Below, piece by piece: positions 1,918 through 37,610 of a DNA stretch of 64,000 nt. The DNA lies in the NCBI GenBank assembly GCA_944330115.1, contig CALVIN010000003.1, positions 124,001 through 188,000 on the forward strand. The letters run 5' to 3'. A program made the position numbers and the translations under genes. A model generated the notes under the pieces. It did no database searches and was not told the DNA's origin. It saw only the letters and a program-made list of their open reading frames with translations. Position 1 is the stretch's first letter. The number at the start of each line of letters is the position of its first letter. The DNA is from an uncultured Clostridia bacterium (lineage in GTDB: Bacteria > Bacillota > Clostridia > Christensenellales > Borkfalkiaceae).

Positions 1918-2097
1918 ACGTCGCAAGCAGGATTTCCCTGCGCCGCAGGCCCCTATTTGCTGCGGTCAGCAGGCTCACCAAAGGGAGAATTGCCCCGATT
2001 ATATAATATGAGAGCCCCTAAAATCGGGGCAAGGGGGAGCTGGCTCCCCTAAACTCACGGAAATTGTTCGGCGTCACCAGCCGAACAATTTCGTGAA
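1918..2097 (+). repeat. Multi-hairpin dispersed element, copy A1
   Basis: Full-length copy. In order: a small hairpin around GCAGGA-TTTCCCTGC, GCTG-CGGT-CAGC, hairpin 1 with stem TTGCCCCGATT / AATCGGGGCAA around a TATAATATGAGAGC loop, hairpin 2 GGGGAGC-TG-GCTCCCC, and hairpin 3 AAATTGTTCGGC / GCCGAACAATTT with loop GTCACCA. It lies between the TIR gene and hsp20. Confidence 0.88.
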
Positions 2098-2111
2098 CCC
2101 CTAAAAAACTT

Positions 2112-2143
2112 TTGCCGAAGCGTTTTTTAAAACGCTTCGGCAA
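2112..2143. terminator. Bidirectional terminator-like hairpin
   Basis: A 15-bp inverted repeat (TTGCCGAAGCGTTTT and its complement) is flanked by T-rich sequence on the + side and A-rich sequence on the other. It could end transcription arriving from hsp20 on the minus strand or from the left on the plus strand. Confidence 0.55.
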
Positions 2144-2240
2144 TTTTCTTAAGGAGAGATTTACGTGCTTACCGCCTTTTGGCGGAGTGTAGTCAATTTT
2201 GCACCGCGGCAATCACTATGCGACTGCGCAGCGGGTTAAA

Positions 2241-2303
2241 CTAAACGGGCGGATTTTCCTCCGACGCATTTGTCTTTTTAGCAGTTCTGAATACCATTTT
2301 CAT
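2241..2303 (-). CDS. Possible 20-aa small protein downstream of hsp20
   Basis: The reading frame ATG AAA ATG GTA ... GTT TAG is preceded by AAAGGAGG with about 6 bases of spacing, one of the best Shine-Dalgarno sequences in the region. It begins MKMVFRTAKK and ends ENPPV, and lies 75 bp downstream of hsp20 in the same direction. It resembles no family I know. The strong ribosome binding site is the only evidence, so it could be a chance frame. Confidence 0.3.
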   Translation of the reverse strand: MKMVFRTAKKTNASEENPPV

Positions 2304-2378
2304 GAGCCGCCTCCTTTAAGGAAAATTTTTGTGCTTTTTGCAAGCCGTGTGCCGCCTTTTTATGCGATCGCGATAGAA

Positions 2379-2810
2379 TTACTCGATCTCGATGTTGTGG
2401 GAAGGAAGCTTTTTAGGCTCGCTCTTGGGAACGGTGAGGCAAAGCATGCCGTTTTCGTACTTGGCCTTTATGCTGCCCTGCTCTACTTCGTCGCCGACGT
2501 AGTAGCTGCGCTGGCAGCTTACCGAGCACTCCTTGCGGATGTACCTTTCGTTCTTGTCTTTGTTTTCCTCTTCCTTCGAGTTCTTGGTGGCGCTTACCGT
2601 GAGGTAACCGTTTTCCAGAGATACCTTTATATCCTTTTTATCGAAGCCGGGCATTTCGACATCGAGCTGATAGCCGTCGTCCGTCTCCTTTATATCTGTG
2701 CGCATACTGTCGATGCTCTCATCGTAAAATACAGGTTTGAAGAAATCGTCGAAAGCATCAAAGAACGGGTCGCGGGGATAAGAATTTCTTTTCTGTAAAT
2801 AGTTTTTCAT
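2379..2810 (-). CDS. Hsp20 / alpha-crystallin small heat-shock protein
   Basis: The 143-aa product is a normal length for bacterial Hsp20, an ATP-independent chaperone that holds unfolding proteins in the cytoplasm. The alpha-crystallin domain covers about residues 40-135, with the family segment VEMPGFDKKDIKVSLENGYL and a C-terminal NIEIE that fits the I-x-I oligomerisation motif. AAAGGAG sits 8-9 bases upstream of the ATG. The gene appears to be transcribed alone, apart from a possible 20-aa frame after it. I see no clear CIRCE element upstream, only an AT-rich TATTATATATAA stretch that could be a -10. Confidence 0.95.
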   Translation of the reverse strand: MKNYLQKRNSYPRDPFFDAFDDFFKPVFYDESIDSMRTDIKETDDGYQLDVEMPGFDKKDIKVSLENGYLTVSATKNSKEEENKDKNERYIRKECSVSCQRSYYVGDEVEQGSIKAKYENGMLCLTVPKSEPKKLPSHNIEIE

Positions 2811-2998
2811 ATATTTTGATCTCCTTTAAAAAACTTATTTTAAAGGATCGGGTCGTTAGCCTTGATTCTTTTTTCACTTTATATATAATACCCGCCGAAC
2901 CGTTTAAAACAGGTTTTAAAAAAATTTTTTTACGAAGCGTTTTTATGCGTCTGCAAGCGTATGTAAGCGTCCGCGCGCCCTGTTTATATAGCAGTATA

Positions 2999-3040
2999 GC
3001 GTGCGCGCCCGCGCGGGATATCCCGCGCGGGCGCGCACGC
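2999..3040. terminator. 42-bp perfect GC-rich palindrome
   Basis: Two 21-base arms (starting GCGTGCGCGCCCGCGCGGGA, meeting at GATATC) are exactly complementary with no spacer. It lies between the end of the mscS operon and the hsp20 promoter region. It could form a very stable terminator-like stem for the operon, but no T-run follows on either strand. Confidence 0.5.
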
Positions 3041-3065
3041 ATACGCATACATATATAATTATTAT

Positions 3066-3575
3066 TTACTTGCGGCTTTTGAGCTCGCTGTCGCGCTCGA
3101 TGATGTTGTCGAGGGTGGCAAGCGCGGCCTGCACCTTTTGCGCGGCGGCGGCAAGGCCCTCGCCCTCATCCGGCTCCCTTGCGCCGAACTTATATGCCGA
3201 GAGCTCGGCACGGGCGTCGGCTATGAGCTTGGAAACGGTGCCGAGGTCGCCATACCTCTCCTTTTCGGCGAGCATGTTTGCGTCGTAGGAGATGTTGTCG
3301 GCCTTATACATTGCGCGCGAAACGCTCTTTATAAAGTCTATCCTCTTTGCGCCGGGGTTTATCGCGGCGATATCGGCGGCGAGCGACGCCACCTGCTTTT
3401 TGAGTTCGGAGTGACGGGGCAGACGCGATTTTTTGTGCAGAATGACGAGCAGCACTATGCTTATTACTATCACCACGCCGAAGGTTATATACTGCGGCAC
3501 CACGTCCCATATGTCGCGCGTGCTTTCTGCTGCGGCGTCTGCGGAAAGAAGGGCGCTTAAAAACAGGTTATTCAT
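3066..3575 (-). CDS. Small membrane-anchored protein of unknown function
   Basis: The start at 3575 (AAAAGGAGG upstream) gives 169 aa. An upstream ATG at 3611 lies inside mscS and has no better signal. There is one clear membrane helix at about residues 24-46 (ITFGVVIVISIVLLVILHK). A basic charged stretch and a long helical cytoplasmic part follow, ending in SELKSRK. The start overlaps the end of mscS by 8 bp, so the two genes are translationally coupled and the product may work at the membrane near the channel. I recognise no family. Confidence 0.75.
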   Translation of the reverse strand: MNNLFLSALLSADAAAESTRDIWDVVPQYITFGVVIVISIVLLVILHKKSRLPRHSELKKQVASLAADIAAINPGAKRIDFIKSVSRAMYKADNISYDANMLAEKERYGDLGTVSKLIADARAELSAYKFGAREPDEGEGLAAAAQKVQAALATLDNIIERDSELKSRK

Positions 3576-4497
3576 CGTCGGCCTCCTTTTTAGCAGTTGC
3601 GGCATCTGCATTTGTGGTATTTGCGGTATTTGCGGCCGCGTCGGCGCTATCCGTCATTTCGGGCAGCAGCGCGACTGTAGCGGCGCCGTCGTAATCGACG
3701 AGCACCCTGCGCGCCGAGGGCTCGGCCTTGTTTTCGCGTATTACGGCGTAAATTATCTCCCTTACGGCGTTCTTTGCGTCGAAATAGGCCTCCACGGGCG
3801 CCCAGGCGTACGCCGTGCACTTTACGGTGAGTTCGCCGAAGGTATCGAAGCAGATGGCAGGCGCGGGGGAATTTATTATCTGGTCGCTCTCCTCCATGCG
3901 CCTGAGCACCTCGCTGCGCACCTTGTTTGCATCGGCGGTGTATGAGATATAGAAGGGCAGCTCAACGCGGCGCAGCGGGCGGTTGCTCTCGTTTACCAGC
4001 GTTTCGGAGAGCACGTCGCTGTTGGGTATTATAACTTCCTCGTTGTTGAAGGTGAGTATCTTGGTGTTGAACAGGCGGATATCCTGCACGGTGCCCTCCT
4101 GCCCGTTTATCATTATGGTATCGCCCTTTTTGAACGGCTTGGTGAAGATTATTATAACGCCGTTTGCAAGGCTTGCAAGGCTGTCCTTTAAGGCGAGGGC
4201 GACCGCAAGGGCTACCGCCGAGAAGGCGGCGATTATGCCCGCCGTGGATATGCCGAGCGAACTTACCACCACTATGACGAGGGCGATATACAGCACCACC
4301 GTTATCATAGAGATGATGAAGGTGGCGGCGGCGTTATCGAGCTTGCTCTTTAAAGCCGCCCTGCGGACTATCATGCGCACAATTTTGAGAATGACCAGCC
4401 CGAGCAGGGCGAAGGCCAGCGTGCGGACGATGGTTATGCCGCCGTCATACAGAAAATTATTGAAATAATCTTGAATACTTTTCCAAAAATCTTCCAT
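3568..4497 (-). CDS. mscS: MscS-family mechanosensitive channel
   Basis: At 309 aa this matches small-conductance mechanosensitive channels, which open under membrane tension to release solutes after osmotic downshock. Three membrane helices lie in the first ~125 residues. The pore-lining Ala/Gly-rich helix is seen as IIAAFSAVALAVALALKDSL, followed by the family's FTKPFKKGDTIMINGQEGTV beta-domain start. The C-terminal 35 residues are Ala/Asp/Thr-rich, low-complexity and specific to this protein. It is the first gene of a two-gene unit with the small anchored protein. Confidence 0.95.
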   Translation of the reverse strand: MEDFWKSIQDYFNNFLYDGGITIVRTLAFALLGLVILKIVRMIVRRAALKSKLDNAAATFIISMITVVLYIALVIVVVSSLGISTAGIIAAFSAVALAVALALKDSLASLANGVIIIFTKPFKKGDTIMINGQEGTVQDIRLFNTKILTFNNEEVIIPNSDVLSETLVNESNRPLRRVELPFYISYTADANKVRSEVLRRMEESDQIINSPAPAICFDTFGELTVKCTAYAWAPVEAYFDAKNAVREIIYAVIRENKAEPSARRVLVDYDGAATVALLPEMTDSADAAANTANTTNADAATAKKEADDE

Positions 4498-4517
4498 TTT
4501 TTACTCCATTGTTTATA

Positions 4518-4550
4518 TTATTCACAAAATTCTTCGGCTAATGCCGCCCC
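4518..4550 (-). repeat. Truncated copy of the multi-hairpin element
   Basis: Only part of hairpin 3 remains (TTCACAAAATTCTTCGGCTA), followed by a GC-rich remnant of the GGGA-palindrome module. It lies in the 258-bp divergent gap between mscS and the ECF S-component gene. Confidence 0.5.
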
Positions 4551-4694
4551 CTCTTTTTACCTCCCTTTGCGGGACGAGAGCGGCTGTGCGGCCCGCGCAA
4601 AAGATTCGTGAACTATTACACTTATTGTACCACACTAATTGCCGCGCGTAAACATCGCGCGTAAACATTTTGAGTGAAAATTTTAAATTTGCTA

Positions 4695-4723
4695 TTGACA
4701 TAAAGCAAACTTTAAATTATATA
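4695..4723 (+). promoter_or_regulatory. Sigma-A promoter of the ECF S-component operon
   Basis: TTGACA at 4695-4700, 17 bp, then TATATA at 4718-4723; an overlapping TATAAT at 4720 would give 19 bp. AAGGAG at 4744 and ATG at 4756 follow. Confidence 0.7.
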
Positions 4724-4755
4724 ATTTAAGAAAAGTAATTTTTAAGGAGTTTTTT

Positions 4756-5319
4756 ATGTTGAGTGCCATTTTAAGGGGCAAGAGCGCGGCGGTGAGGCTC
4801 ACCGTAAAGGGTACTGTGGCCGTGCTGCTCATCGTTATGGCGGCCGCGCTGCCGCAGATAGCGCACATGCCGGGCGGAAGCGCCGCAGGTGCCGTTTGGC
4901 TGCCCATGTATGCGCCCGCGCTGCTTGCGGGCTGCCTTTTGGGCTGGCAGTGGGGCCTGGGCGTGGGTATGCTCTCCCCCGTTGCGAGCTTTGCCTTTAC
5001 CTCGCTATTTTTAGGCAGCGCCATGCCCGCCGCGGCAAGGCTGCCCTATATGATAGTGGAGCTGGGCGTATTCGGCCTTATCTCCGGCCTGTTTGCAAAG
5101 AGGATAGAGCGCAACGCGCTGTGGGCCTTCCCCGCGGTGATATGCGCGCAGATCAGCGGCAGGTTTATCTACTTTGTAGCGGCCGTGATATTCGGCCAGG
5201 GCGCGAACGAGGTGTGGAGCGCCATATACAGCGGCCTTGCGGGGCTGTATGTGCAGGCGGCGATAGTGCCAATTATAGTATTGCTCCTATCTATGGCGAT
5301 AAAACATGACCGCGATTGA
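4756..5319 (+). CDS. ECF-type transporter substrate-binding (S) subunit
   Basis: This is a 187-aa integral membrane protein with about six helices. It has the small, Gly/Ala-rich layout of ECF S-components, which bind a vitamin or metal and are energised by a shared EcfA-EcfA'-EcfT module. The segment PMYAPALLAGCLLGWQWGLG is typical of the family. The energising genes, often near rplQ in Clostridia, are not in this window, so this would be a stand-alone (group II) S-component. The substrate cannot be read from sequence. AAGGAG lies 6 bases upstream of the start. The 3' end overlaps the next gene by 14 bp. Confidence 0.78.
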   Translation: MLSAILRGKSAAVRLTVKGTVAVLLIVMAAALPQIAHMPGGSAAGAVWLPMYAPALLAGCLLGWQWGLGVGMLSPVASFAFTSLFLGSAMPAAARLPYMIVELGVFGLISGLFAKRIERNALWAFPAVICAQISGRFIYFVAAVIFGQGANEVWSAIYSGLAGLYVQAAIVPIIVLLLSMAIKHDRD

Positions 5320-6853
5320 GAGGGCGAAGAAGCTGCTGTGCGGCAGGGCGACGCTTGCCGTGGTAAACGGAAAGCGCGAGAGGGTTTATTACGAACGCGG
5401 CGTGCAGCCGCTTACAGACATGAATGAGAGCGACCGCGCGCTGCTTGACGGCGCCTCGGCCGCGGACAGAGTTATAGGAAGGGCCGCCGCCCTTTTGATG
5501 ATAGCCGGCGGCGTGAAGGAGGCCTTCGGCGAGGTGATGAGCGAGGGCGCCATTGCCGCGTTTGAAGAGCACGGCGTGCGGTATTTTTACGGCACGCGCA
5601 CAAAATACATAATCAACCGCGCGGGGACGGGCCCCTGCCCCATGGAGCAGACGGCGGCATACATAACCGACCCCGCCAAGGCCGAAGAGGCCATAAGGCG
5701 CACGCAGCACCTATTAAAGTTGCGCGCGCAGGGAGGAAAGATGAAAAAATTAGGATTCGGAATGATGCGCCTGCCGCTGCTCAGCGACGACCAGGCAAAT
5801 ATCGACCTTGAGCAGGTGAACAAGATGGTGGATACATACCTTGCGCGCGGGTTTGAATACTTCGACACGGCGTGGATGTATCACAACCACACGAGCGAGA
5901 TAGCCGTGCGCGAGTGCCTTGTGAAGAGATACCCGCGCGAGTGCTATAAACTTGCCACAAAACTGCCGGTATTTTCGCTCACCTGCGCCGAGGATATGCA
6001 AAAGATATTCGACAAGCAGTGCGAAAAGTGCGGCGTGGAGTACTTCGACAACTACCTGCTGCACAACATAAATTCGGGCGACTACGACGCCGTGCAGAAG
6101 TACGACGCCTTCGCCTTTGCGCGCAAACTTAAGGCCGAGGGCAGAATAAAGCACTACGGCTTCTCCTTCCACGACACGCCCGAAATGCTCGACAGGGTGC
6201 TCACCGAACACCCCGATGCCGAGTTTGTGCAGTTGCAGATAAACTACCTCGACTGGGAGAGCGAAGGCGTGCAGTCGCGGAGATTGTGGGAAGTCGCGCG
6301 CAAGCACAACAAGCCGATAATAGTTATGGAGCCGGTTAAGGGCGGCACGCTGGCGAACATACCCGAGCAGGCCGCGGGACTTTTTAAGGCGATAGCGCCC
6401 GAAAGGAGCGTTTCCAGCTGGGCGATACGCTTTGCCGCGGGGCTCGACGGCGTGTTTATGGTGCTTTCGGGCATGTCGAACATGGCGCAGCTTGACGACA
6501 ATACCTCCTTTATGGAGAACTTTGAGCCGCTAAACAAAAAGGAGCTTGAGGCGGTGAAGAAGGTGGCGAGCATAATAAAGGGCACGGGCGCGATAGCGTG
6601 CACGGCGTGCAGGTATTGCACGGAGAACTGCCCGATGGACATACCCATACCCGACTACTTTTCACTCTACAACCTTGAGCTGATAGAGAACAGAGAGGGC
6701 TGGACGACGCAACAGAACTATTACGAGAACTACGCCGCATCCCACGGGAAGGCCTCGGACTGCATAAAGTGCGGCGCGTGCGAGAGCCACTGCCCGCAGC
6801 ACCTTGAAATACGCAGCCTGCTTGAAAAGGTGGCGCAAAAGTTTGAAAATTAA
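5306..6853 (+). CDS. DUF1893 domain fused to ferredoxin-type aldo/keto reductase
   Basis: Residues 1 to about 135 resemble DUF1893 (the TM1506-like deaminase fold): ATLAVVNGKRERVYYERGVQ, then a run ending FYGTRTKYIINRAG and CPMEQ. From residue 146 (MKKLGFGMMRLPL) a complete aldo/keto reductase barrel follows, with the DTAWMYHNH segment holding the catalytic Tyr. Two Cys clusters of a 4Fe-4S ferredoxin domain follow (CTACRYCTENCP and CIKCGACESHCPQ), a layout found in predicted Clostridia oxidoreductases. GGGAGGAAAG lies directly before the ATG of residue 146 (position 5741), so the reductase may also be made separately. The substrate is unknown. The start overlaps the transporter gene. Confidence 0.85.
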   Translation: MTAIERAKKLLCGRATLAVVNGKRERVYYERGVQPLTDMNESDRALLDGASAADRVIGRAAALLMIAGGVKEAFGEVMSEGAIAAFEEHGVRYFYGTRTKYIINRAGTGPCPMEQTAAYITDPAKAEEAIRRTQHLLKLRAQGGKMKKLGFGMMRLPLLSDDQANIDLEQVNKMVDTYLARGFEYFDTAWMYHNHTSEIAVRECLVKRYPRECYKLATKLPVFSLTCAEDMQKIFDKQCEKCGVEYFDNYLLHNINSGDYDAVQKYDAFAFARKLKAEGRIKHYGFSFHDTPEMLDRVLTEHPDAEFVQLQINYLDWESEGVQSRRLWEVARKHNKPIIVMEPVKGGTLANIPEQAAGLFKAIAPERSVSSWAIRFAAGLDGVFMVLSGMSNMAQLDDNTSFMENFEPLNKKELEAVKKVASIIKGTGAIACTACRYCTENCPMDIPIPDYFSLYNLELIENREGWTTQQNYYENYAASHGKASDCIKCGACESHCPQHLEIRSLLEKVAQKFEN

Positions 6854-6862
6854 ATATACAGT

Positions 6863-6891
6863 TTTACTTTTGCGGCGCGGTGTGATATAAT
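6863..6891 (+). promoter_or_regulatory. Promoter of the 106-aa orphan
   Basis: TTTACT, 17 bp, TATAAT (6886-6891). The predicted start of transcription (about 6898) falls at or just before the first usable ATGs. An ATG at 6890 overlaps the -10 and cannot be the start. Confidence 0.7.
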
Positions 6892-6910
6892 GCCGCATAT
6901 GAAGGGGCGC

Positions 6911-7231
6911 ATGCTTAAAAAACTGAACAGGCCCGCGACCGCCGAGGGCGTGGAGAGCGCGATAAGAGAGTGCGGCTATACCCCCTTTGAGGAGGGCGAT
7001 ATAGAGGGGCTTAAGCTTATGACGGTGTTCAAAGCGCGCGAGCGGCACACGGCAAGGCGCAAAAAGGCGGACGGGCTGTATTTGAGGGTGCAGAGCTTTA
7101 CCTCGCCCGAGGGTGCGGAGGACCATGACTTTTTGGTGATAAACGCCGAGAGGCGCGCAAAGCCGCGCGGCGAGGACAAGAAGAAATTTGCGCCGGTATA
7201 TTACAAAATATTTTATAAAAAAATAAATTAA
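6911..7231 (+). CDS. Uncharacterised 106-aa basic protein
   Basis: I chose the ATG at 6911 because AAGGGGC precedes it and the upstream ATG at 6890 lies in the promoter; 6899 is possible as a near-leaderless start. The protein starts MLKKLNRPATAEG, is Lys/Arg-rich and soluble, and ends YYKIFYKKIN. A middle part (LYLRVQSFTSPEGAEDHDFL) looks like a beta-rich fold. I recognise no family. It has its own promoter and a shared terminator with the convergent HAD gene. Confidence 0.6.
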   Translation: MLKKLNRPATAEGVESAIRECGYTPFEEGDIEGLKLMTVFKARERHTARRKKADGLYLRVQSFTSPEGAEDHDFLVINAERRAKPRGEDKKKFAPVYYKIFYKKIN

Positions 7232-7309
7232 AATTCAAATTTAAATTTAATTATTATTTTTGCGCAACAAAGTGCGGCATATACCGCGATTTTTTGGGAG
7301 AAAAGGTTT

Positions 7310-7340: not shown

Positions 7341-7383
7341 ATTGTTATTTTTATTTTATTTTATTTTTAATTGCAATTTAATT

Positions 7384-11205: not shown

Positions 11206-11390
11206 TGGTAAAAATGAAAAAATAAGTTCACAAAAATTTCGCCCGCACCGAGCGGGCAAAATCAAAAGAAATTTTATTTGCCGCCATTGAGCGGAGATGG
11301 AGCGGCTTTGCTCGCCGTCCCTCGAAGGGGAGGTACCAATGCGGTAAAATGCCGCGCGCAAAACGCACGGCATTTATTCTAAAATAACTT

Positions 11391-11571
11391 ACGTCGCAAG
11401 CAGGGTTTCCCTGCGCCGCAGGACTCAATTTGCTGCGGTCAGCAGGCTCACCAAAGGGGGAATTGCCTCGATTATATAATATGAGAGCCCCTAAAATCGG
11501 GGCAAGGGGGAGCTGGCTCCCCAAAACTCACGGAAATTATTCGGCGGCACCAGCCGAAGAATTTCGTGAAC
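11391..11571 (+). repeat. Multi-hairpin dispersed element, copy A2
   Basis: Near-identical to copy A1, including the opening ACGTCGCAAGCAGGGTTTCC. Hairpin 1 has a CTCGATT arm against AATCGGG (one C/T substitution giving a G:T-type pair), and hairpin 3 carries ATTATTCGGC / GCCGAAGAAT. Just upstream lies a shorter GGGGAGG module (11324-11340). Confidence 0.88.
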
Positions 11572-24053: not shown

Positions 24054-24355
24054 TTCACGAAATTCTTCGGCTGGTGACGCCGAACAATTTCCGTGATTTT
24101 GGGGGAGCCCTTCTCGCGCGGCGGGCGGTATAGTACCGCCGCGCTCGGTCACCGCTCGGGCTTGCGTTTGCCCTCGCTCATCTCACAATGCGCAAACAGC
24201 GCGTGTGTGCTGTTTGCAGAAGTGCATTGTTCGACCCCCTTGCCCCGATTTTAGGGGCTCTCATATTATATAATCGGGGCAATTCCCTCTTTGGTGAGCC
24301 TGCTGACCGCAGCAAATAGGGTCTTTCGGCGCAGGGAAACCCTGCTTGAAACGTG
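24054..24355 (-). repeat. Multi-hairpin dispersed element, copy A3, with nested insert
   Basis: On the minus strand the element has all hairpins except 2, where about 115 bp of a GTGT-type module has replaced the GGGGAGC / GCTCCCC stem. Hairpin 1 keeps the exact CCCCGATT pairing. A partial duplicate of the end (GTTCACGAA) precedes it. Confidence 0.85.
24140..24237 (+). repeat. GTGT-loop hairpin module, copy C4 (variant stem)
   Basis: The stem here is AACAGC / GCTGTT, unlike the CACAGCGG stem of the main form, yet still paired around a GTGT-containing loop. It sits inside element A3. Confidence 0.6.
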
Positions 24356-24400
24356 AGTTATTTTAGAATGACCCCTCTTTCGCCTTCGGCTTACCTCCCC

Positions 24401-24451
24401 TTCGAGGGGAGGTGGCACATATGAGCACCGCGAATATGTGACGGGTTTCAT
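24401..24451 (+). repeat. GAGCAYCGCGA-loop hairpin module, copy D1
   Basis: CATAT-GAGCACCGCGA-ATATG follows GGGAGGTGGCA and precedes TGACGGGTTTC. Copies near 37.7 and 61.06 kb have different stem sequences that still pair. Confidence 0.6.
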
Positions 24452-24548
24452 TGTCGTTCGCTTATATGAGCCTGTGAAACCCCACCCTACCCTCCCCTCA
24501 AAGGGGAGGTGCCGCCGTAGGCGGCGGAAGGGTTATTCATAATAACTC

Positions 24549-24723
24549 ACGTCGCAAGGCGGGTTTCCCGCCGCAGCAGGCCCCAATTTGCGCATACCTG
24601 CGCCTCAGCAGGGTGAATTCGCGCGACTATACGCTCCGTGGGCCCTTAAGGTCGCGCGAAGAGGGGCAGCGCCCCTCAAATTCACGGAAAATATCGCGCA
24701 CGGCCTGCGCGAGATTTTCGTGA
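24549..24723 (+). repeat. Multi-hairpin element, strongly diverged copy A4
   Basis: Every stem differs from A1 but still pairs: GGCGGG-TTT-CCCGCC; TTCGCGCGAC / GTCGCGCGAA; GAGGGGC-AGC-GCCCCTC; AAAATATCGCGC / GCGCGAGATTTT. It ends at the 3' end of the aminotransferase gene, where TGAGCTCA overlaps its stop region. Confidence 0.8.
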
Positions 24724-24725
24724 GC

Positions 24726-25928
24726 TCATTTTACTTTGCGCAAGAAGTCTGCAATGCGGTTCAGCCCCTCCACCATATCCTCCATCGAAAGAGCGTAAGA
24801 GAGGCGGATGCACTCGTCGTCGCCGAAGCATATGCCGGGGGTGAGGGCTACCTTTGCGTGGTCGAGCAGCATTTCGGTGAGGTCCATGCTGCCGCGTATC
24901 ACCTTGCCCTCGTAGCTCTTGCCGTAGAACTTGTCGCACAGCAGCATTACATAGAAGGCGCCCTCGGGCTTTACATAGTCGAGGCCGATGTCCTTTAAGC
25001 CGTCGAGTATCTCCATCATCTTATTGCGACGGGCGGCGAACGCCTTTACCATCTCCTCCATGGGCTTGATGGGGCCCTCGAGGGCGGCGAGCGTTGCATA
25101 CTGCGTCATGGTGTTGACGTTGGAGGTCGCGTGGCTCTGGAAGGAACCTATGGCCTTTGCTATCTCGGGCGAGGCGCCGAGGTAACCCAGCCTCCAGCCC
25201 GTCATGGCGTACGACTTGGATACGCCGTTTACCGTTATGGTGAGATCCATCATCTTGGGGGATACCGATGCGATTGAGAAGTGCTTTTCGCCGCCGTAGA
25301 TGAGCTTTTCGTATATCTCGTCGGCGAGCACGAGGATGTCGTGCTTTTCGCAGACTGCGGCTATTGCCCTTATCTCCTCCTCGGAATACACGGCGCCCGT
25401 GGGGTTGCCGGGGGTATTGAAGATGAGCATCTTGGTTTTGGGAGTTATAGCGGCCTCGAACTGCTCGGCCGACATCTTAAAGCCCGATTCGCGCGTGGTG
25501 GTCACATATACGGGCACGCCGCCGCAGCACTTCACCACCTCGGGATAGGTGAGCCAGTAGGGCGAGGGAATTATTACCTCGTCGCCGGGATCGATAGTTG
25601 CGAACACGGCGTTGAAAATGGAGTGCTTTGCGCCGTTGGAAATAACTATCTGAGAGGGCTGATATTCGAGGTTGTTATCGTCCTTGAACTTTTTGCATAC
25701 CGCCTTTTTGAGTGCGGGCAGGCCTGAAGCCGCCACATACTTGGTGTAGCCCTTATCGAGCGCGTCCTTAGCCGCCTGAATGATATGTGCGGGGGTGTTG
25801 AAATCGGGCTCGCCCACGCCGAAGGAGATGACGTTTTCACCTGCGGCCTTGAGCTCGGCAGCCCTCGCCGACATGGCGAGCGTCATCGAAGGGGCGATAT
25901 TTGCCACTCTTTGAGATAATTTTGACAT
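24726..25928 (-). CDS. Pyridoxal-phosphate aminotransferase, aspartate type
   Basis: 400 aa from the ATG at 25928, which follows AAAGGAAG by 6 bases; the frame to 25952 adds unsupported residues. It is a class I aminotransferase of the AspB type. The N-terminal SQRVANIAPSMTLAMSARAA is typical. GVGEPDFNTPAHI and NTPGNPTGAVYSEEEIRAIA are conserved blocks, the PLP lysine is in NGVSKSYAMTGWRLGYLG, and the carboxylate-binding Arg is in CIRLSYALS. It probably exchanges amino groups between aspartate and 2-oxoglutarate; other substrates are possible. It is monocistronic, with a strong promoter. Confidence 0.93.
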   Translation of the reverse strand: MSKLSQRVANIAPSMTLAMSARAAELKAAGENVISFGVGEPDFNTPAHIIQAAKDALDKGYTKYVAASGLPALKKAVCKKFKDDNNLEYQPSQIVISNGAKHSIFNAVFATIDPGDEVIIPSPYWLTYPEVVKCCGGVPVYVTTTRESGFKMSAEQFEAAITPKTKMLIFNTPGNPTGAVYSEEEIRAIAAVCEKHDILVLADEIYEKLIYGGEKHFSIASVSPKMMDLTITVNGVSKSYAMTGWRLGYLGASPEIAKAIGSFQSHATSNVNTMTQYATLAALEGPIKPMEEMVKAFAARRNKMMEILDGLKDIGLDYVKPEGAFYVMLLCDKFYGKSYEGKVIRGSMDLTEMLLDHAKVALTPGICFGDDECIRLSYALSMEDMVEGLNRIADFLRKVK

Positions 25929-26015
25929 TTGGCACTTCCTTTGCAAAAACACGCCGCGGCCCTTGCGGCTGCACGCAGAGTTTTTGACAATATAAAAAAT
26001 TTTTATTCATTTTTT

Positions 26016-26395: not shown

Positions 26396-26654
26396 CAGGG
26401 GAGACAAGAGAGCAGCTTACGCCGCCCCCTTCGGGGAGACGAAGTGAAACCCCTCCGTCACGCTCCGTTATACTGCGCGTGCCACCTCCCCTCGAAGGGG
26501 AGGTGACGCGGACAAGCAAAGCGAGGCCGCGGCGAAGGGGTTATTCCAAACAAATAATCGTCGCAAGGTGGGGTCTCAAGCAATGTAAGGGAAACATTGC
26601 ATTCTGCCGTTTCCACGCTTTGCGCGGAACCTCGGCAGAGCAGCGCTTCGCTCG

Positions 26655-26745
26655 CGCGGTCACCGTTCGCACGGGACGTATGTGCTCACTCATCTCATTG
26701 CACACGAAAGGCGGGTGTCCGCCTTTCTATGAAATGTGCAATTCG
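26655..26745 (+). repeat. GTGT-loop hairpin module, copy C3 (variant stem)
   Basis: The stem is GAAAGGCGG / CCGCCTTTC, eight to nine bp, all paired, with GTGT loop and CTATGAAATG flank retained. The same variant recurs at 63.98 kb. Confidence 0.75.
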
Positions 26746-26746
26746 T

Positions 26747-26955
26747 CCCGCCGCAGCAGGCCTCAATTTGCGCATACCTGCGCATCTGCCGTTTCCCTTC
26801 GGGAGCCTCGGCAGGGCAGCGCTTCGCTCGCGCACCAAAGGGGGAATTGCCCCGATTATATAATATGAGAGCTCTTATAAATCGGGGCAAGGGGGAGCTG
26901 GCTCCCCCAAAATCACGAAAATTATTCGGCGACACCAGCCGAATAATTTTGTGAG
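26747..26955 (+). repeat. Multi-hairpin element, copy A5 with insert
   Basis: Hairpins 1-3 are intact (CCCCGATT pairing, GGGGGAGC / GCTCCCCC, ATTATTCGGC / GCCGAATAAT). Between the 5' part and hairpin 1 about 50 bp has been inserted, starting ATCTGCCGTTTCC and ending GCTCGCGCACC, matching a stretch near 1.66 kb. Confidence 0.8.
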
Positions 26956-31376: not shown

Positions 31377-31464
31377 CATAATATTATATGAATTTTTATT
31401 GAATAAGAGGTGAGGGGACATTTACAGAGCGTTCATGCAAGTTAATGAAACCCCTCATTTAATT

Positions 31465-31525
31465 CCTCCCCTCGAAGGGGAGGTACCAATGCGGCAAAAA
31501 AAATACCTCCCCTCAAAGGGGAGGT
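31465..31525. repeat. Pair of GGGGAGG palindromes
   Basis: CCTCCCCT-CGA-AGGGGAGG (31465-31483) and ACCTCCCCT-CAA-AGGGGAGGT (31505-31525). The two arms are one of the most widespread words in the window; single copies occur at 33045, 40501 and 63827, with variants elsewhere. Confidence 0.8.
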
Positions 31526-31560
31526 AAGCCGAAGGCGAGAGGGGTATCCCAAAACAAATC

Positions 31561-31742
31561 ACGTTTCAAGCAGGGTTCCCCTGCGCCGAAAGACCCTATT
31601 TGCTGCGGTCAGCAGGCTCACCAAAGGGGGAATTGCCGCAACTATATATTATGAGAGCATTTTAAGGTTGCGGCAAGGGGGAGCTGGCTCCCCAAAACTC
31701 ACGGAAATTGTTCGGCGGCACCAGCCGAACAATTTCGTGAAC
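31561..31742 (+). repeat. Multi-hairpin element, copy A6 (different hairpin 1)
   Basis: Hairpin 1 is TTGCCGCAAC / GTTGCGGCAA rather than TTGCCCCGATT / AATCGGGGCAA, yet perfectly paired; the loop keeps ATTATGAGAGC. Hairpins 2 and 3 match A1. It ends 2 bp from the prfA stop codon. Confidence 0.88.
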
Positions 31743-31744
31743 TC

Positions 31745-32812
31745 TTACCCCGCCAGCTGATTTTCGCGCTCGGCGACGGTGAGCGCCTCTACCATCTCGT
31801 CGATGTCGCCCTGCATGAAGGTATCGATAGAATAGAGCGAGAGGCCGATGCGGTGATCGGTCACCCTGCCCTGCGGGAAGTTGTAGGTGCGTATGCGCTC
31901 GCTGCGGTCGCCCGTGCCTACGAGGCTCTTGCGGCGGCTGTCGTACTCGCTCCTGTTCTGCGAGCTGTAATAGTCGTAGAGGCGCGAGCGGAGCACCTTG
32001 AACGCCTTATCCTTGTTTTTGAGCTGGCTGCGCTCGTCCTGGCAGGTGACGACTATGCCCGTGGGGAAGTGCGTAATTCTTATGGCCGTCTCGGTCTTGT
32101 TTACCTTCTGCCCGCCCGCGCCGGAGGAGCGGTATACGTCTACCCTTATGTCCTCGTCGCGTATCTCCACGTCGACGTCCTCGGCCTCGGGAAGTACGGC
32201 CACGGTGGCCGTTGAAGTGTGCACGCGCCCCTGCGACTCCGTTTCGGGCACGCGCTGCACGCGGTGCACGCCGCTTTCAAATTTTAAAAGCTTGTATGCC
32301 CCCCTGCCGCTGACGTTGAACACTACCTCCTTTATGCCGCCCAGCTCGGTCTCGTTTATGTCGACGACCTCCGTCTTTAAGCGGTGCCTTTCGCAGTAGC
32401 CGAGGTACATGCGGTAGAGTTCGGCAGCAAACAGGGCGGCCTCGTCGCCGCCGGCGCCGCCGCGTATCTCCACTATGCAGTTCTTTTCGTCGTTCTTGTC
32501 CTTGGGTAGGAGCAGCACCTTCAGCTCGCCCTCTATCTCCGAGAGCTGCTTCTTTAACGACTGCTCCTCTTCGGAGAGAAGTATCTTCATCTCGGGGTCG
32601 CTCTCCGTTTTGAGCGCCTCGGTAGTCTGCGAGAGCCTGCGGTCACACTCGCGGTATTCGCCGTATTTTTGCGCCATTTCGGCAATTTCGGACTGCTCCT
32701 TGGCGAGCGCCGTCCACTTGGCACTGTCGGCAATTATGTCGGGGTCGGCCATCTTTTCAGACAGCGACTGATATTTATTATAAATTTCGTTGAGCTTATC
32801 TAAAAAAACCAT
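31745..32812 (-). CDS. prfA: Peptide chain release factor 1
   Basis: 355 aa from the ATG at 32812 (GGAG 8 bases upstream). It recognises UAA and UAG stop codons and releases the peptide through its GGQ motif, seen in SSGAGGQKVNKTETAIRITH. The codon-reading domain follows an N-terminal helical domain. It lies in the usual rpmE / prmC / prfA cluster; PrmC methylates the GGQ Gln. Both ends are bordered closely by multi-hairpin elements, one ending next to its ribosome binding site. Confidence 0.97.
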   Translation of the reverse strand: MVFLDKLNEIYNKYQSLSEKMADPDIIADSAKWTALAKEQSEIAEMAQKYGEYRECDRRLSQTTEALKTESDPEMKILLSEEEQSLKKQLSEIEGELKVLLLPKDKNDEKNCIVEIRGGAGGDEAALFAAELYRMYLGYCERHRLKTEVVDINETELGGIKEVVFNVSGRGAYKLLKFESGVHRVQRVPETESQGRVHTSTATVAVLPEAEDVDVEIRDEDIRVDVYRSSGAGGQKVNKTETAIRITHFPTGIVVTCQDERSQLKNKDKAFKVLRSRLYDYYSSQNRSEYDSRRKSLVGTGDRSERIRTYNFPQGRVTDHRIGLSLYSIDTFMQGDIDEMVEALTVAERENQLAG

Positions 32813-32825
32813 ACATAACTCCGTG

Positions 32826-33003
32826 TTCACGAAATTCTTCGGCTGGTGACGCCGAATAATTTCCGTGAGTTCTGGGGAGCCAGCTCCCCCTTGCCCCGAT
32901 TTTAGGGGCTCTCATATCATATAATCGGGGCAATTCCCCCTTTGGTGAGCCTGCTGCCGCAGCAAATAGGGTCTTTCTGCGCAGGGAAACCCTGCTTGAA
33001 ACG
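32826..33003 (-). repeat. Multi-hairpin element, copy A7
   Basis: A complete copy in the minus orientation. Its 3' end (GTGAAC) borders ACGGAG, the ribosome binding site of prfA, so hairpin 3 lies at the prfA initiation region. Confidence 0.88.
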
Positions 33004-33180
33004 TTTATTTATTTAGGAATAACCCCTCCGCCGCCTACGGCGGCACCTCCCCTCAAAGGGGAGGTATATCTATTTTCAAAGGATAGGTGACAAACAAAAA
33101 ATGCGGCGGCGCGGCTTTGCCGCGCCGCCGCGCCAATACTGAGATATCCCCCTGTTTATACATCGCTACGCTCAAAAAAA

Positions 33181-33661
33181 ATTCATAGATGCGAGCAAGA
33201 CAAGGAGAACGCGGCTTTGTCCGCAGGGAGCTTACTTAATGGTAAGTGACCAAGGCAAAACGCAAGTTCGACGCCGTATTGCGACGCATATACCGCAGCC
33301 ATAAAAATTCATAGATGCGAGCAAGACAAGGAGAGCGAGGAAAACTTGAGGGAGTTTACTTAAGCGTAAATGACCGAAAGTTGCCGCAGCGCGACGCCGT
33401 ATTGCGACGCATATACCGCAGCCATAAAAATTCATAGATGCGAGCAAGACAAGGAGAGCGAGGAAAACTTGAGGGAGTTTACTTAAGCGTAAATGACCGA
33501 AAGTTGCCGCAGCGCGACGCCGTATTGCGACGCATATACCGCAGCCATAAAAATTCATAGATGCGAGCAAGACAAGGAGAGCGAGGAAAACTTGAGGGAG
33601 TTTACTAAAGCGTAAATGACCGAAAGTTGCCGCAGCGCGACGCCGTATTGCGACGCATATA
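33181..33661 (+). repeat. 123-bp tandem repeat, about four copies
   Basis: Copies start at about 33181 (diverged, 126 bp), 33307, 33430 and 33553. The unit begins ATTCATAGATGCGAGCAAGA and ends GACGCCGTATTGCGACGCAT. Near its middle, TTTAC-TTAAGC-GTAAA forms a hairpin; in the first copy it is CTTAC-TTAATG-GTAAG. Confidence 0.92.
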
Positions 33662-33668
33662 TGAATTT

Positions 33669-35495
33669 TTAAAAGGCTATTTTTAAAAACCTGTCTTTAC
33701 CCTCCAGATCCTTTATCACCATGGCGTAGTCGCGCTTTTCAAAGAGGCGGAGCACTTCGGCGGCCTGGTCTTCGCCGACCTCCAAGATGAGCATGCCGCC
33801 GCGCGCAATGTAGCGGTGCGCCTCGGCAGCCAACCTGCGGTAGAAATCGAGGCCGTCCTCGCCGCCGTCGAGCGCTATCCTCGGCTCGAAGTTCTTTACC
33901 TCGTCGGCGAGGGTGTGTATCTCCGCCGAGCGGATATAGGGCGGGTTGCATACGATGAGGTTGAACCTGCCGCGGATATTTGCAAACAGATCGCTCTGCA
34001 CGAAGTTTACGTTTACGCCATTCAGCTCGGCATTCTCTTTGGCGAGCATTATGGCGGCGTCGGAAACGTCGGCCGCGGTGACCGCAACGCGCTTCTTTTC
34101 GCAGCCCTTGGCTATGGCTATTGCCAGGCAGCCGCTTCCCGTGCACATATCGAGCACCTTGTCGCCCTCTTCGGCCGTCTTTATGGCTATATCGGCGAGC
34201 TGCTCGGTCTCGGGGCGGGGTATGAGCACCCTCTCGTCCACCTTTATCTTGCAGTCGCAGAAGTCCACGTCGCCGATTATATACCACAGCGGCCTGCCCG
34301 TAAGCCTCTCACTGGCGATGGCGGCTATCCTTTTGCTCTCCGCTGGGGTGACCATGCGCTCGTCTTTGAGCCCGCTGCGCGGCACGCCGAGCACTATCGA
34401 ATATATCCACTCGGCGTCGCTCTCGTCGATGCCCTTTTCGGCAAACTTGGCCTTTGTTTCGGCAAGTTTTTGCGAGAGTATGCCGCTCGTTATAAACTCC
34501 GTTTCGGGCATGGCGGGGTCGGCGTCCATGTCGAGCACCTTCTGGAAGGCGGCTATGGCCACCTCGGCCATGCTTTCGTCGGGCTCGCGGGTGGTGAATA
34601 CCTTTTGGATGAAGAAGCCGGGGGCCTTGAATATCAGCACAAACTTGTTGTTGAACCTGGCTACGAACTTTAATATCTCGTACGAGATGCCGGCGATGAC
34701 GGGCAGGAGCACTATTTCAATGCCCAGCTTTGCCAAAAATTCGAGCACGCCATTTTCGATGCGCTGCACACCTATCGCCCAGTTGACGAGGGAAATGATG
34801 AGTATATTTATTATTATTACTATAAACAGAAAGGACGTGCCGCAGCGCGCGTGCAGGCGGGAGCACTTCATCACGTTTTCCACGGTGAGCGGCATGCCGC
34901 TCTCGTAGCAGGTGATGGTTTTATGCTCGGCGCCGTGATACATATACAGGCGGCGGATATCCTTTAAGATGAGTATCAGCCCCAGATAGGCGAAGAATAT
35001 GACGAGCTTGAACACGCCGAGGAGCACGAACTCCCACGCGGTGCCAGCGACCGCGGGCGCGGCCTCCCTTATGCCGCCGACAGCAAGGTTTGGCAGCACG
35101 ATAAAGAGCGCCACCGCCAGCACCACGCCGAGGCATACGGCTATGGTGGAGACGACGCTCATAAGATTTATTTTGCACTTTTCGGCCAGCCACTTTTCGA
35201 CCCTGCCGGCCTCCTCCTCTTCGCCGTAGACGGCTGCGGAGCGCATGAGGGTGCCCATGCCGCGGACCAAACTGAGCGCCATGTTGACGATGCCGCGCAC
35301 GAAGGGTATTTTTGACGCGCGTGCGACGCCCTTGGGGGTGTTGAGGCGCTTTGCCTCCACCTGTATCTGGCCGTCGGGATCGCGCACGGCGGTAGCCATG
35401 CACGTCTTGCCCATCATCATAACGCCCTCCAAAACGGCCTGGCCGCCTATCGAGCACGATATTTTTTTGTTCTTTTCTGATTTGTTTTTAGGCAT
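33669..35495 (-). CDS. prmC: DUF1385 membrane domain fused to PrmC methyltransferase
   Basis: 608 aa from the ATG at 35495 (MPKNKSEKNKKIS); the 76 codons upstream are repeat DNA. Residues 1 to about 320 are a DUF1385/YqhQ-like membrane domain (CSIGGQAVLEGVMMMGKT; YMYHGAEHKTITCYESG; several membrane helices). The rest is PrmC, which methylates Gln in the GGQ motif of release factors: RLTGRPLWYIIGDVDFC, PRPETEQLA, SAM loop DMCTGSGCLAIAIA and catalytic NPPY. Separate adjacent genes for both occur in many Clostridia, so this is a domain fusion of neighbours. There is no clear ribosome binding site. It lies between rpmE and prfA. Confidence 0.92.
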   Translation of the reverse strand: MPKNKSEKNKKISCSIGGQAVLEGVMMMGKTCMATAVRDPDGQIQVEAKRLNTPKGVARASKIPFVRGIVNMALSLVRGMGTLMRSAAVYGEEEEAGRVEKWLAEKCKINLMSVVSTIAVCLGVVLAVALFIVLPNLAVGGIREAAPAVAGTAWEFVLLGVFKLVIFFAYLGLILILKDIRRLYMYHGAEHKTITCYESGMPLTVENVMKCSRLHARCGTSFLFIVIIINILIISLVNWAIGVQRIENGVLEFLAKLGIEIVLLPVIAGISYEILKFVARFNNKFVLIFKAPGFFIQKVFTTREPDESMAEVAIAAFQKVLDMDADPAMPETEFITSGILSQKLAETKAKFAEKGIDESDAEWIYSIVLGVPRSGLKDERMVTPAESKRIAAIASERLTGRPLWYIIGDVDFCDCKIKVDERVLIPRPETEQLADIAIKTAEEGDKVLDMCTGSGCLAIAIAKGCEKKRVAVTAADVSDAAIMLAKENAELNGVNVNFVQSDLFANIRGRFNLIVCNPPYIRSAEIHTLADEVKNFEPRIALDGGEDGLDFYRRLAAEAHRYIARGGMLILEVGEDQAAEVLRLFEKRDYAMVIKDLEGKDRFLKIAF

Positions 35496-35604
35496 AAAGG
35501 AAATAAAGTCTATAAATTTTCGGGGAAGTGAAACCCCTCCGTCACGCTCCGTTGCACTTCGCGTGCCACCGTCTCGCCATGCGTGCGGTATAATACCGCA
35601 TGGC

Positions 35605-35697
35605 TCGGTCACCGCTCGGGCTTGCATTTGCCATCGCTCATCTCGCTCGGCACGCACAGCGGGTGTCCGCTGTGCTATGAAATGCCTCGCTCGTCCC
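35605..35697 (+). repeat. GTGT-loop hairpin module, copy C5
   Basis: CACAGCGG-GTGT-CCGCTGTG with flank CTATGAAATGCC, close to C2 and C6. Confidence 0.8.
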
Positions 35698-35780
35698 TCA
35701 AAGGGGCGGTACAAATATTGCATTGCGCTTAACGGCTGAAATAAATTCAGCCTTGCGCATAATTTATTTCTAAATAAATT

Positions 35781-35962
35781 AACGTTTCAAGCAGGGTTTC
35801 CCTGCGCTGAAAGACCCTATTTGCTGCGGTCAGCAGGCTCACCAAAGGGGGAATTGCCCCGATTATATAATACGTGAGCCCCTAAAATCGGGGCAAGGGG
35901 GAGCTGGCTCCCCAAAACTCACGAAAATTATTCAGCGTCACCAGCCGAATAATTTTGTGAAC
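35781..35962 (+). repeat. Multi-hairpin element, copy A8
   Basis: A complete copy. Hairpin 3 has ATTATTCAGC / GCCGAATAAT, where one pair has decayed; hairpins 1 and 2 are perfect. The loop carries TATAATACGTGAGC. Confidence 0.85.
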
Positions 35963-35979
35963 CTTTTTTTGAGAATAAT

Positions 35980-36007
35980 GGGCGGCGCCAAAAAATTGGA
36001 GCCGCCC
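35980..36007 (-). terminator. Terminator of rpmE
   Basis: GGGCGGC-GCCAA... hairpin with an A/T-rich centre, lying 8 bp past the rpmE stop on the minus strand. Confidence 0.7.
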
Positions 36008-36014
36008 TGCTTTG

Positions 36015-36227
36015 TTACATATTGTATCTTTTTTTGAATTTGTCTACACGGCCGCCTGTGTCGACAAGTTTCTGCTTGCCGGTAAAGAACGGGTGGCATT
36101 TGTTGCAGATATCCACTTTGAGCGTTTCAACGTTCTTGGTGGTACCCGTTTTAAATGTTGCACCGCAGGCGCATACAACCGTTACTTCATGATATCCGGG
36201 ATGTATATCGGGCTTCACTTTATTCAC
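36015..36227 (-). CDS. rpmE: Ribosomal protein L31 (zinc type)
   Basis: 70 aa. It is a large-subunit protein that bridges the two subunits. Two Cys pairs (CACGATF and [10 protein letters not shown]) form the zinc site of the C+ form, which cells can swap for a C- form when zinc is scarce. The N-terminus [15 protein letters not shown] is typical. It has its own promoter and a terminator, and heads the rpmE / DUF1385-prmC / prfA cluster. Confidence 0.97.
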
Positions 36228-36253
36228 CTCGCGTTAGTTTTCAATGCTAAACT

Positions 36254-36282
36254 ATTATATATCATTCTGCGGGGGCAGTCAA
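36254..36282 (-). promoter_or_regulatory. Promoter of rpmE
   Basis: Minus strand TTGACT, 17 bp, TATAAT, giving a leader of about 25 nt. Confidence 0.8.
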
Positions 36283-36429
36283 TCAAAAATCGGCTCATTC
36301 ACAAAATTATTTGCCCGCCGCAAATTTTTTTATGCACATTTACGCGCGCCGCGCGCCTTATTTTTTGCCTTCTGCACAAAAGTTGCGCCGCCGCCCGCCC
36401 TGCGGGGGCAAAAATTATTTATAATTTAG

Positions 36430-36458
36430 TTGCGTTTATCAAAATTTGTGAGTATAAT
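36430..36458 (+). promoter_or_regulatory. Promoter of the dehydrogenase-like gene
   Basis: TTGCGT, 17 bp, TATAAT (36453-36458). Predicted transcription start is only a few bases before ATG 36471, and no Shine-Dalgarno is visible, suggesting a leaderless or near-leaderless mRNA. Confidence 0.6.
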
Positions 36459-36470
36459 TAAGTTACTATT

Positions 36471-37490
36471 ATGGATAACTGGATTTTAAAGAGCGCCAAT
36501 ACGCTCGTAAATGAACCTCAGCAAGAGCGCGCCGTCTCAGCCGACGAAGTGAAGGTTAAGGTGACGTATGTGCTTGCATCCAACTTCGACGCCGTGCTCT
36601 ATTCGGGTACGGGCGGCGCGCACTATCCCAAGACCATAGGCAGGTTTGCCGTGGGCAGGGTGATGGAGGCCGGCGCCGACTGCTACGGCGTTGAAAAGAA
36701 TACGCGCGTTCTGTTGAAGCCCACGCGCCCCTGCGGCAAGTGCTTAAGCTGCAAGACCGGCAAAGAGGAAAAGTGCAGCTCGGTGGCCATTGCGGGAAGG
36801 GACTTCGACGGATTTTTGCGTGATTTTGTGGTGTGCAAATATACCGACGTGGCCCCCTTGCCCGACTCTGTGACCGACATAGAGGCGCTGTGCACCGAGG
36901 CCGTGGCGCTTGCCGAGCGCATATATTCCAGACTCGCCCTCCCTGCGGGGAGCAGGGTGGCCGTAGTTGGTTGCAGCTTTGCGGGCAACATACTTGCGCA
37001 GGTGCTGCAGTATCACAAGCTGATACCCATAGTTATCGACAACAGCCCCGCCGCGCTCGACAAGGCGCGCGCCTGCGGGATATACTATTCATATTTACCC
37101 GACGAGGACCTTGCGGAGAACATACGCGAGGCGACGAGCGGGCAGCTGTGCGACGCCGCGATATACACGACGTGCTCCCGCCTCGACCCGGCGATAACCA
37201 TGCGCGTACTGGCGGAGGGCAAGTGCGCCGTGCTGGCGGGCTTTGCGCCCATCGATTTCAACATTCCCGCGCGCGAGCTGTGCGACAGAAACATAAGCCT
37301 TACATCCGTTATGTCGGGCTATGACTATACCGACACGGCGATAAATCTGCTTGTGCACGACGCCGTAAACACCGACGTGTTTGAAAAGGAGATACTCACC
37401 GAATACGACCCCAACGCCGTATATAAGGCGATGAGCGAAACGGTGGGCACCCGCAAAAATAAGATGATAATTTTTAAGATGATACTGTAA
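36471..37490 (+). CDS. MDR-family dehydrogenase-like protein lacking catalytic zinc ligands
   Basis: 339 aa, medium-chain dehydrogenase fold. The structural zinc Cys are intact at 88, 91, 94 and 102 (CGKCLSC ... C). The catalytic site is not: where alcohol dehydrogenases have G-x-C and G-H-E, this protein has ASNFD (36-40) and GRFAVG (57-62). The nucleotide-binding domain runs VAVVGCSFAGNIL with a Gly-poor loop. It may be an oxidoreductase using another chemistry, or a non-catalytic regulator. The start has no ribosome binding site and follows the promoter at once. It is a single-gene unit that ends in a multi-hairpin repeat. Confidence 0.82.
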   Translation: MDNWILKSANTLVNEPQQERAVSADEVKVKVTYVLASNFDAVLYSGTGGAHYPKTIGRFAVGRVMEAGADCYGVEKNTRVLLKPTRPCGKCLSCKTGKEEKCSSVAIAGRDFDGFLRDFVVCKYTDVAPLPDSVTDIEALCTEAVALAERIYSRLALPAGSRVAVVGCSFAGNILAQVLQYHKLIPIVIDNSPAALDKARACGIYYSYLPDEDLAENIREATSGQLCDAAIYTTCSRLDPAITMRVLAEGKCAVLAGFAPIDFNIPARELCDRNISLTSVMSGYDYTDTAINLLVHDAVNTDVFEKEILTEYDPNAVYKAMSETVGTRKNKMIIFKMIL

Positions 37491-37493
37491 GGG

Positions 37494-37610
37494 GTTCACG
37501 AAAATATCGCGCAGGCCGTGCGCGATATTTTCCGTGAGTTTGAGGAACTAAGTTCCTCTGGCGGCATTTTTTAGGGCCCACGATTATCAGAAATGCCGCC
37601 ATTCACCTCC
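37494..37610 (-). repeat. Multi-hairpin element, strongly diverged copy A9
   Basis: In minus orientation. Stems differ from A1 but pair exactly: GAAAATATCGCGC / GCGCGATATTTTC, GAGGAACT / AGTTCCTC, and TGGCGGCATTT / AAATGCCGCCA. A9 begins right after the dehydrogenase-like gene's stop codon. Confidence 0.78.

Follow-up and report, generated by a model that had tools for sequence, protein, structure and literature searches.

A dispersed five-hairpin repeat with covarying stems in an uncultured Clostridia genome and its relatives

An uncultured Clostridia bacterium of the family Borkfalkiaceae carries many copies of a repeat of about 190 bp built of five hairpins, HA, HB, H1, H2 and H3 from 5' to 3', whose stems differ from copy to copy while remaining paired. 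We analysed it in a 64,000-nucleotide stretch of contig CALVIN010000003.1 (assembly GCA_944330115.1, positions 124,001 to 188,000), hereafter the window, and in the rest of the source genome and related genomes. Our preferred, though tentative, reading is that the repeat is a non-autonomous mobile element that is moved as a folded single DNA strand. An enzyme encoded elsewhere would recognise the row of hairpins by its shape, its loop sequences and a bulged G in H3, and would attach the H3 end to target sites that mostly border coding regions; the stems would stay paired, their letters drifting together, because copies have to remain movable. A search of open-licence PMC papers found no description of this repeat family.

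Five hairpins whose stems change in step

A sequence-only reading had reported nine dispersed copies in the window, and all nine were located. The 3' part is whole in eight of them and interrupted in one. The unit length of about 191 bp was set by the junction of a head-to-tail tandem elsewhere in the source genome (L039), where ...CGTGAA is followed directly by TTC....

1904..2097, plus strand: copy c1, whole unit from 5' TTC... to 3' ...CGTGAA, its ends inferred from the period-191 tandems L039, L289 and L291
1928..1941, plus: HA of c1, GCAGG/CCTGC
1958..1971, plus: HB of c1, TGCTG/CAGCA
1990..2032, plus: H1 of c1, TTGCCCCGATT/AATCGGGGCAA, loop of about 21 nt
2034..2049, plus: H2 of c1, GGGGAG/CTCCCC
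2055..2096, plus: H3 of c1, a long stem with a bulged G in its left arm at 2059 or 2060
11377..11570, plus: copy c2
24054..24365, minus: copy c3, H2 broken by about 126 nt of another repeat (about 24110-24235)
24535..24725, plus: copy c4, H3 end at the stop codon of an aminotransferase-like gene (24726-25952, minus)
26548..26955, plus: copy c5, 5' part interrupted by other repeats
31547..31741, plus: copy c6, H3 end 3 nt off the prfA stop codon (prfA 31745-32812, minus)
32826..33018, minus: copy c7, H3 end about 13 nt ahead of the prfA start
35768..35961, plus: copy c8
37495..37690, minus: copy c9, H3 end 4 nt off the stop codon of a gene at 36471-37490 (plus)

R1, a covariance model of the 3' part (H1 to H3; 118 positions, 34 pairs), was built from eight of the nine window copies. 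It recovered all nine places, eight at full length (E <= 4.6e-28) and c3 as two pieces; because R1 was built from those eight, their scores follow by construction, and the independent evidence lies in the rest of the source genome (G000; 1.77 Mb, 95.6% complete). The search of G000 scored 150 of 449 first-look candidates and gave 119 matches at E <= 1. Fifty-nine are full-length at 66 bits or more (the window plus 56 stretches, 250,449 bases), about 17 further loci are interrupted or partial by our count, to about E 1e-7, and most of the remaining matches overlap copies on the opposite strand. Several other G000 loci give a two-piece match split at the same place as c3, and c4 is identical over H1 to H3 to copies at two different loci (L051, L052). 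Head-to-tail tandems occur with a period of 191 in G000 (L039), G027 (L289) and G205 (L291), of 222 in G351 (L295, L298) and of 213 in G044 (L301). A lone H3 hairpin, with the rest of the element missing, lies in a gene spacer (L057 5532-5574; G000 C14:16931-16973), which suggests that H3 is able to exist alone.

The stems covary in three alignments, each fitted to the structure and so biased towards pairing, and each scored by a measure that is not phylogeny-aware. The first, of the 59 G000 copies (56 distinct rows), has pairing in 98.3% of 1900 stem cells and two-sided changes at 24 of the 34 pairs; the covariation score is 0.534, against 0.193 for shuffles and at most 0.136 with partners slid by 1-3 columns. 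The corresponding values for 32 copies from relatives are 97.2% of 1079 cells, 33 of 34 pairs and 0.669 (0.174 shuffled, at most 0.121 slid), and for 27 further matches that include the sister genus (26 distinct rows) 96.5% of 847 cells, 32 of 34 pairs and 0.738 (0.196 shuffled, at most 0.158 slid). Further pair types in G000 were not above shuffles (47 against 45.1; 109 of 500). These results bear out the view that a dead repeat, simply drifting, would not show such a pattern. The alignment of eight copies over H1 to H3 likewise agrees with the sequence-only reading that order and loops are shared while stems differ and stay paired, and the stem variants that it quoted are correct. Independent insertion of unrelated palindromes fails as an explanation, as loops, order, spacing and bulge are constant while the stems change.

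How the stems change depends on the distance between copies. Among G000 copies, 112 pairs are close (8 differences or fewer). In these, the 34 stem pairs show 90 one-sided and 25 two-sided changes and the 54 unpaired columns show 473; the pairs are not independent, and gaps were scored as changes in unpaired columns only. The stems thus change less than the loops. Recent stem changes are mostly one-sided, and two-sided ones accumulate between more distant copies.

Our analysis adds the variable 5' hairpins HA and HB, the conserved bulged G of H3 and a wider distribution. HA and HB vary between copies yet stay paired (71 of 91 copies analysed, 20 skipped). At the HA place 94% of 79 copies have a hairpin scoring at least 5, compared with 30% of shuffles, and at the HB place 96% have one scoring at least 4, compared with 7%; this support, from 79 of the 91 copies, is for the presence of hairpins and is not a covariation statistic. 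In 84 of 91 copies the left arm of H3 retains one bulged G, by eye also where the outer H3 pairs have changed (L106, L121, L123).

Distribution and placement beside genes

As the sequence-only reading had proposed, a covariance model built from the copies was used to search the genome and its relatives, and it found copies in G000, in its genus and in one sister genus. Within the genus, where 45 candidates were scored per genome, 43 of 49 genomes match R1 at E <= 1e-4, with 0 to at least 45 matches each; six of the 49 have no match, nor do any of 32 genomes of other families. In an order-wide draw of 297 genomes, nine match (G000, seven congeners and one genome of the sister genus), and there is no match in two congeners, 12 other family members and 274 genomes of other families. 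A phylum draw of 398 genomes returned G000 alone and none of the 397 others. For draws of more than 40 genomes the filters were stricter and few candidates were scored, at the cost of weak matches. The element was found in one family only, in its own genus and one sister genus. By prfA, the closest records that carry a name belong to Candidatus Coproplasma species, and the genus searched is probably that of Candidatus Coproplasma, judging by this gene. With c1 as query, phage and plasmid records gave no match.

The 3' end of the element usually adjoins coding sequence, open reading frames (ORFs) being called here as longest-ORF guesses and not taken from annotation. In G000, 28 of 59 copies have a stop codon no more than 13 nt from the H3 end and 11 have a start no more than 22 nt from it; in relatives, 14 of 32 have a stop codon no more than 10 nt away and nine a start no more than 26 nt away. 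Some of these starts, three in G000 and one in relatives, reach 5 nt into the end of the repeat and were probably miscalled. On the 5' side, with the end placed 75 nt ahead of the match, an ORF lies 22 nt away or less in 3 of 58 copies in G000 and 8 of 30 in relatives. The neighbours of the G000 copies are co-directional in 32 of 57 cases, convergent in 18 and divergent in seven (22 of 118 rows surveyed were without a neighbour), against 170, 37 and 39 of 246 gene pairs in stretches of G014. The co-directional copies comprise 16 in sense and 16 in antisense orientation.

Related genomes include gaps in which the element is missing. By eye, it is absent from nine gaps of G014 whose orthologues in G000 are occupied (the nine were drawn from 14 rows, two of which are one gap), and R1 finds no match in them, its best score in 22 loci, 13.7 bits, falling elsewhere. 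In G000, prfA has copies on both sides, and in G034 and G084 a copy stands directly after the prfA stop codon (L134, L142). Close relatives L154 and L158 are without the element before prfA, and L154 also after it. A terminator-like hairpin after prmC is kept in G000, and the DNA from there to prfA is replaced by repeats (window 32812-33131). With that DNA replaced, prfA would need to be expressed from or through the repeats.

Other repeats share the window. In a second dispersed hairpin family the GTGT loop is conserved and the stems are swapped (GCACAGCGG/CCGCTGTGC, GAAAGGCGG/CCGCCTTTC, GCACAATGG/CCATTGTGC); this family is also present inside the five-hairpin element. A third, often directly upstream of the five-hairpin element, consists of CCTCCCCTCAAAGGGGAGG and a hairpin with stems, by eye, of CATAT/ATATG, CTAAT/ATTAG and CATAC/GTATG.

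26679-26749, 35621-35707, 63577-63663 and 63954-64000: second hairpin family
24378-24452, 37696-37770 and 61025-61099, also 31464-31544 and 33045-33084: third repeat family

Between prmC and prfA, a 123-bp unit stands in three near-identical tandem copies (33269-33661), with a relative at 59638-59704. Short repeats at 62546-62704 lie inside an ORF (62258-63424, minus) and, on that strand, are predicted to encode a stretch rich in histidine and acidic residues. A 458-aa ORF at 39-1415 weakly matches the C-terminal part of a model for a TIR-domain anti-phage reverse transcriptase (31 bits, cut-off 600).

Folded DNA strand, structured RNA and other readings

The sequence-only reading had proposed selection on structure, either as RNA or as DNA. 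That proposal is supported in part: the stems covary, and wobble counts fit both molecules. Over all model pairs in the three alignments, G-T occupies 118 of 3826 cells (3.1%) and A-C 16. Two positions account for 86 of the 118: the innermost pair of H1, and the pair next to the bulge of H3, where moving the bulge by one position gives Watson-Crick pairing again. With these two doubtful positions set aside, G-T falls to 32 of 3606 (0.9%) and A-C to 15 (excess p 0.019, copies not being independent); in one of the three alignments, A5, A-C exceeds G-T by 7 to 4. Folded DNA tolerates G-T better than A-C. The excess of G-T suggests that the modelled strand is the one that folds, and it fits RNA and folded DNA alike. 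Compared with a control of nine tRNAs (6 of 153 pairs, other Clostridia being among the source loci), the G-T share does not differ when all pairs are counted (p 0.48); leaving out the two doubtful positions puts it below that of the tRNAs (p 0.004). A stem finder that maximises Watson-Crick pairs had indicated a near absence of wobble (2733 of 2806 Watson-Crick, 16 G-T, 9 A-C); it had misplaced H2 or H3 in a few rows and was overturned by the fixed-structure recount.

That the repeat works as a structured RNA is the main alternative, though a rather doubtful one. Within transcripts, its hairpins would serve to insulate, process or stabilise the mRNAs nearby, a role also proposed for repetitive extragenic palindromes (REPs). 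Selection would then act on the RNA, and the repeat might still spread by DNA mobility. The excess of G-T over A-C (118 to 16, or 32 to 15) is consistent with this, as are GNRA-like HB loops in some copies (GCAA 4, GGAA 1, GAGA 1 of 71), a weak sign that the H1 loop pairs with the bases preceding H1 (p 0.0005 to 0.11 by subset, relatedness uncontrolled) and the position of 50 of 57 G000 copies between co-directional or convergent genes, a habit of REPs too (PMC3733652). However, the window has no Rfam match at the curated gathering threshold (a broader Rfam control, with one riboswitch in 140 kb, was not used), some congeners have no match, and co-directional copies stand in sense and antisense alike. 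Wobble is also rarer than in tRNAs once the doubtful positions are removed, and flips (GC-CG or AT-TA), which have no wobble intermediate, make up 51% of the differing Watson-Crick comparisons in G000 and 36% in relatives, transition-type changes making up 39% in each.

Pairing might also be kept up without selection, by a polymerase that switches templates and copies one arm onto the other; at inverted repeats, such switching makes the two arms alike and can turn the spacer around (PMC8604942). The many two-sided changes, flips among them, would then be expected, and the second repeat family of the window also has swapped perfect stems. We consider this improbable, as arm copying should erase the bulged G that nearly all copies retain, no inverted H1 loop was seen by eye in 118 rows, and stem changes in close pairs, most of them one-sided, are less frequent than those in unpaired columns. 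Sites, perhaps cruciforms, bound by a nucleoid or chromosome-organising protein would be numerous, in both orientations and conserved in their loops, as the copies are; five stems that all vary would hardly be needed for binding, however, and with six of 49 congeners lacking a match and close relatives lacking the element at orthologous gaps, this explanation seems very unlikely. A promoter was considered and rejected: 33 of 118 aligned rows have TATAAT in the loop of H1, but with no convincing first hexamer.

In favour of a mobile, folded DNA strand we count the copy number that varies within one genus, the orthologous gaps that lack the element, the identical copies at separate loci, the head-to-tail tandems, the ends that are not inverted repeats of each other, the placement beside genes, the covariation, the retained bulge and the excess of G-T. 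Several results weigh against this reading, for which mobility, recognition as a single strand and an enzyme acting from elsewhere are what we infer. No insertion or excision event was seen, target-site duplications are unreadable in gaps between genes that are too diverged, and unequal crossing-over can produce the tandems. At least five relatives have a spacer of 12-28 nt after prfA (L137, L138, L139, L144, L152), and the abutment to genes may be due in part to short spacers. Counted over every pair, the wobble share equals that of tRNAs and so does not separate folded DNA from RNA, and the fixed-structure recount weakened the DNA reading and strengthened the RNA one. Finally, no mover was found in G000, where Y1 transposases, reverse transcriptases, IS110 and tyrosine and serine recombinases were looked for and DDE families were not. 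Serine recombinases, with four matches in G000, are present in zero-copy G007 and G011 and give no match in copy-bearing G006, G019 and G022, showing no tie to copy number.

Y1_Tnp (PF01797) occurs in 12 of 49 genomes searched and has no match in the copy-rich G000, G015 and G029, the missing 4% of G000 being uncovered; the reverse transcriptase domain RVT_1 (PF00078) has none in the same three. The IS110 DEDD transposase (PF01548) is without a match in the 23 genus genomes searched, and G000 has none. These three were therefore rejected as movers encoded in assembled G000. Y2_Tnp matched none of 31 genomes, but none of 14 control genomes either. G000 has a single Phage_integrase (PF00589) match; its closest model is XerS, whose cut-off it does not reach, and it scores 58.3 bits with the integron integrase model (cut-off 265). 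It is 77% identical to a protein of zero-copy G007, and its retention there indicates that it is not a dedicated mover; a host Xer might still act on the repeat.

Dispersed bacterial palindromes are already known. Mobility of the element would imply an undescribed enzyme, and the alignment would state what that enzyme reads. Two-sided change in 33 of 34 pairs across one genus, with bulge and loops fixed, would amount to a natural mutational scan of a shape-recognised strand. An RNA role would make the element an unnamed structured family whose copies number in the dozens in some genomes.

Comparison with known systems

Integron attC sites are located at gene edges and carry the core sites RYYYAAC and GTTRRRY. 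They are recognised through a folded strand with extrahelical bases, two of them on the same side (PMC3053210), and share little sequence conservation (PMC2727003). The element resembles them in a strand that can be folded with an extrahelical base, in the low sequence conservation of its stems and in its placement at gene edges. It differs in having five hairpins, and a single bulged G where attC has two extrahelical bases; the core pair lies on one strand in 0 of 91 copies, and no integron integrase was found in G000, its sole tyrosine recombinase match being the XerS-like one.

REPs are high-copy extragenic palindromes found mainly between co-directional and convergent genes (PMC3733652). 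The element too is high-copy and extragenic, mainly in such spacers, as in the REP/REPIN/BIME group, but it is 190 bp long with five hairpins, against a palindrome of 20-40 bp, and G000 has no RAYT-type Y1_Tnp. REPs carry an unpaired GTAG or CGTC at one end, and in the element such tags are irregular: CGTC precedes HA in 14 of 59 G000 copies and 1 of 32 in relatives, and GTAG follows H3 in 3 of 59 and 1 of 32. IS200/IS605-type elements have asymmetric ends with hairpins. The element shares hairpins and asymmetric ends with them, and differs in that its copy-rich genomes lack a Y1 match. Like miniature inverted-repeat transposable elements of the DDE type it is short, dispersed and non-coding, but inverted matching between its ends, with the 5' end fixed at 75 nt before the match, is near chance level: over 15 nt the best match averages 8.4 and 9.0 positions, and 8.0 and 8.1 after shuffling. 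A retroelement origin finds no reverse transcriptase in G000, G015 and G029.

That the element is a new kind of mobile element, with five hairpins, an attC-like extrahelical base, a folded strand recognised by shape, placement at gene edges and an enzyme from outside the Y1, integron, IS110 and reverse-transcriptase families, is a bolder claim that we hold to be somewhat unlikely. If true, it would show that single strands are recombined by shape recognition outside integrons and IS200/IS605-REP systems as well. Among known systems, the element works most like integron attC and is REP-like by genome habit, standing outside both classes as these are defined.

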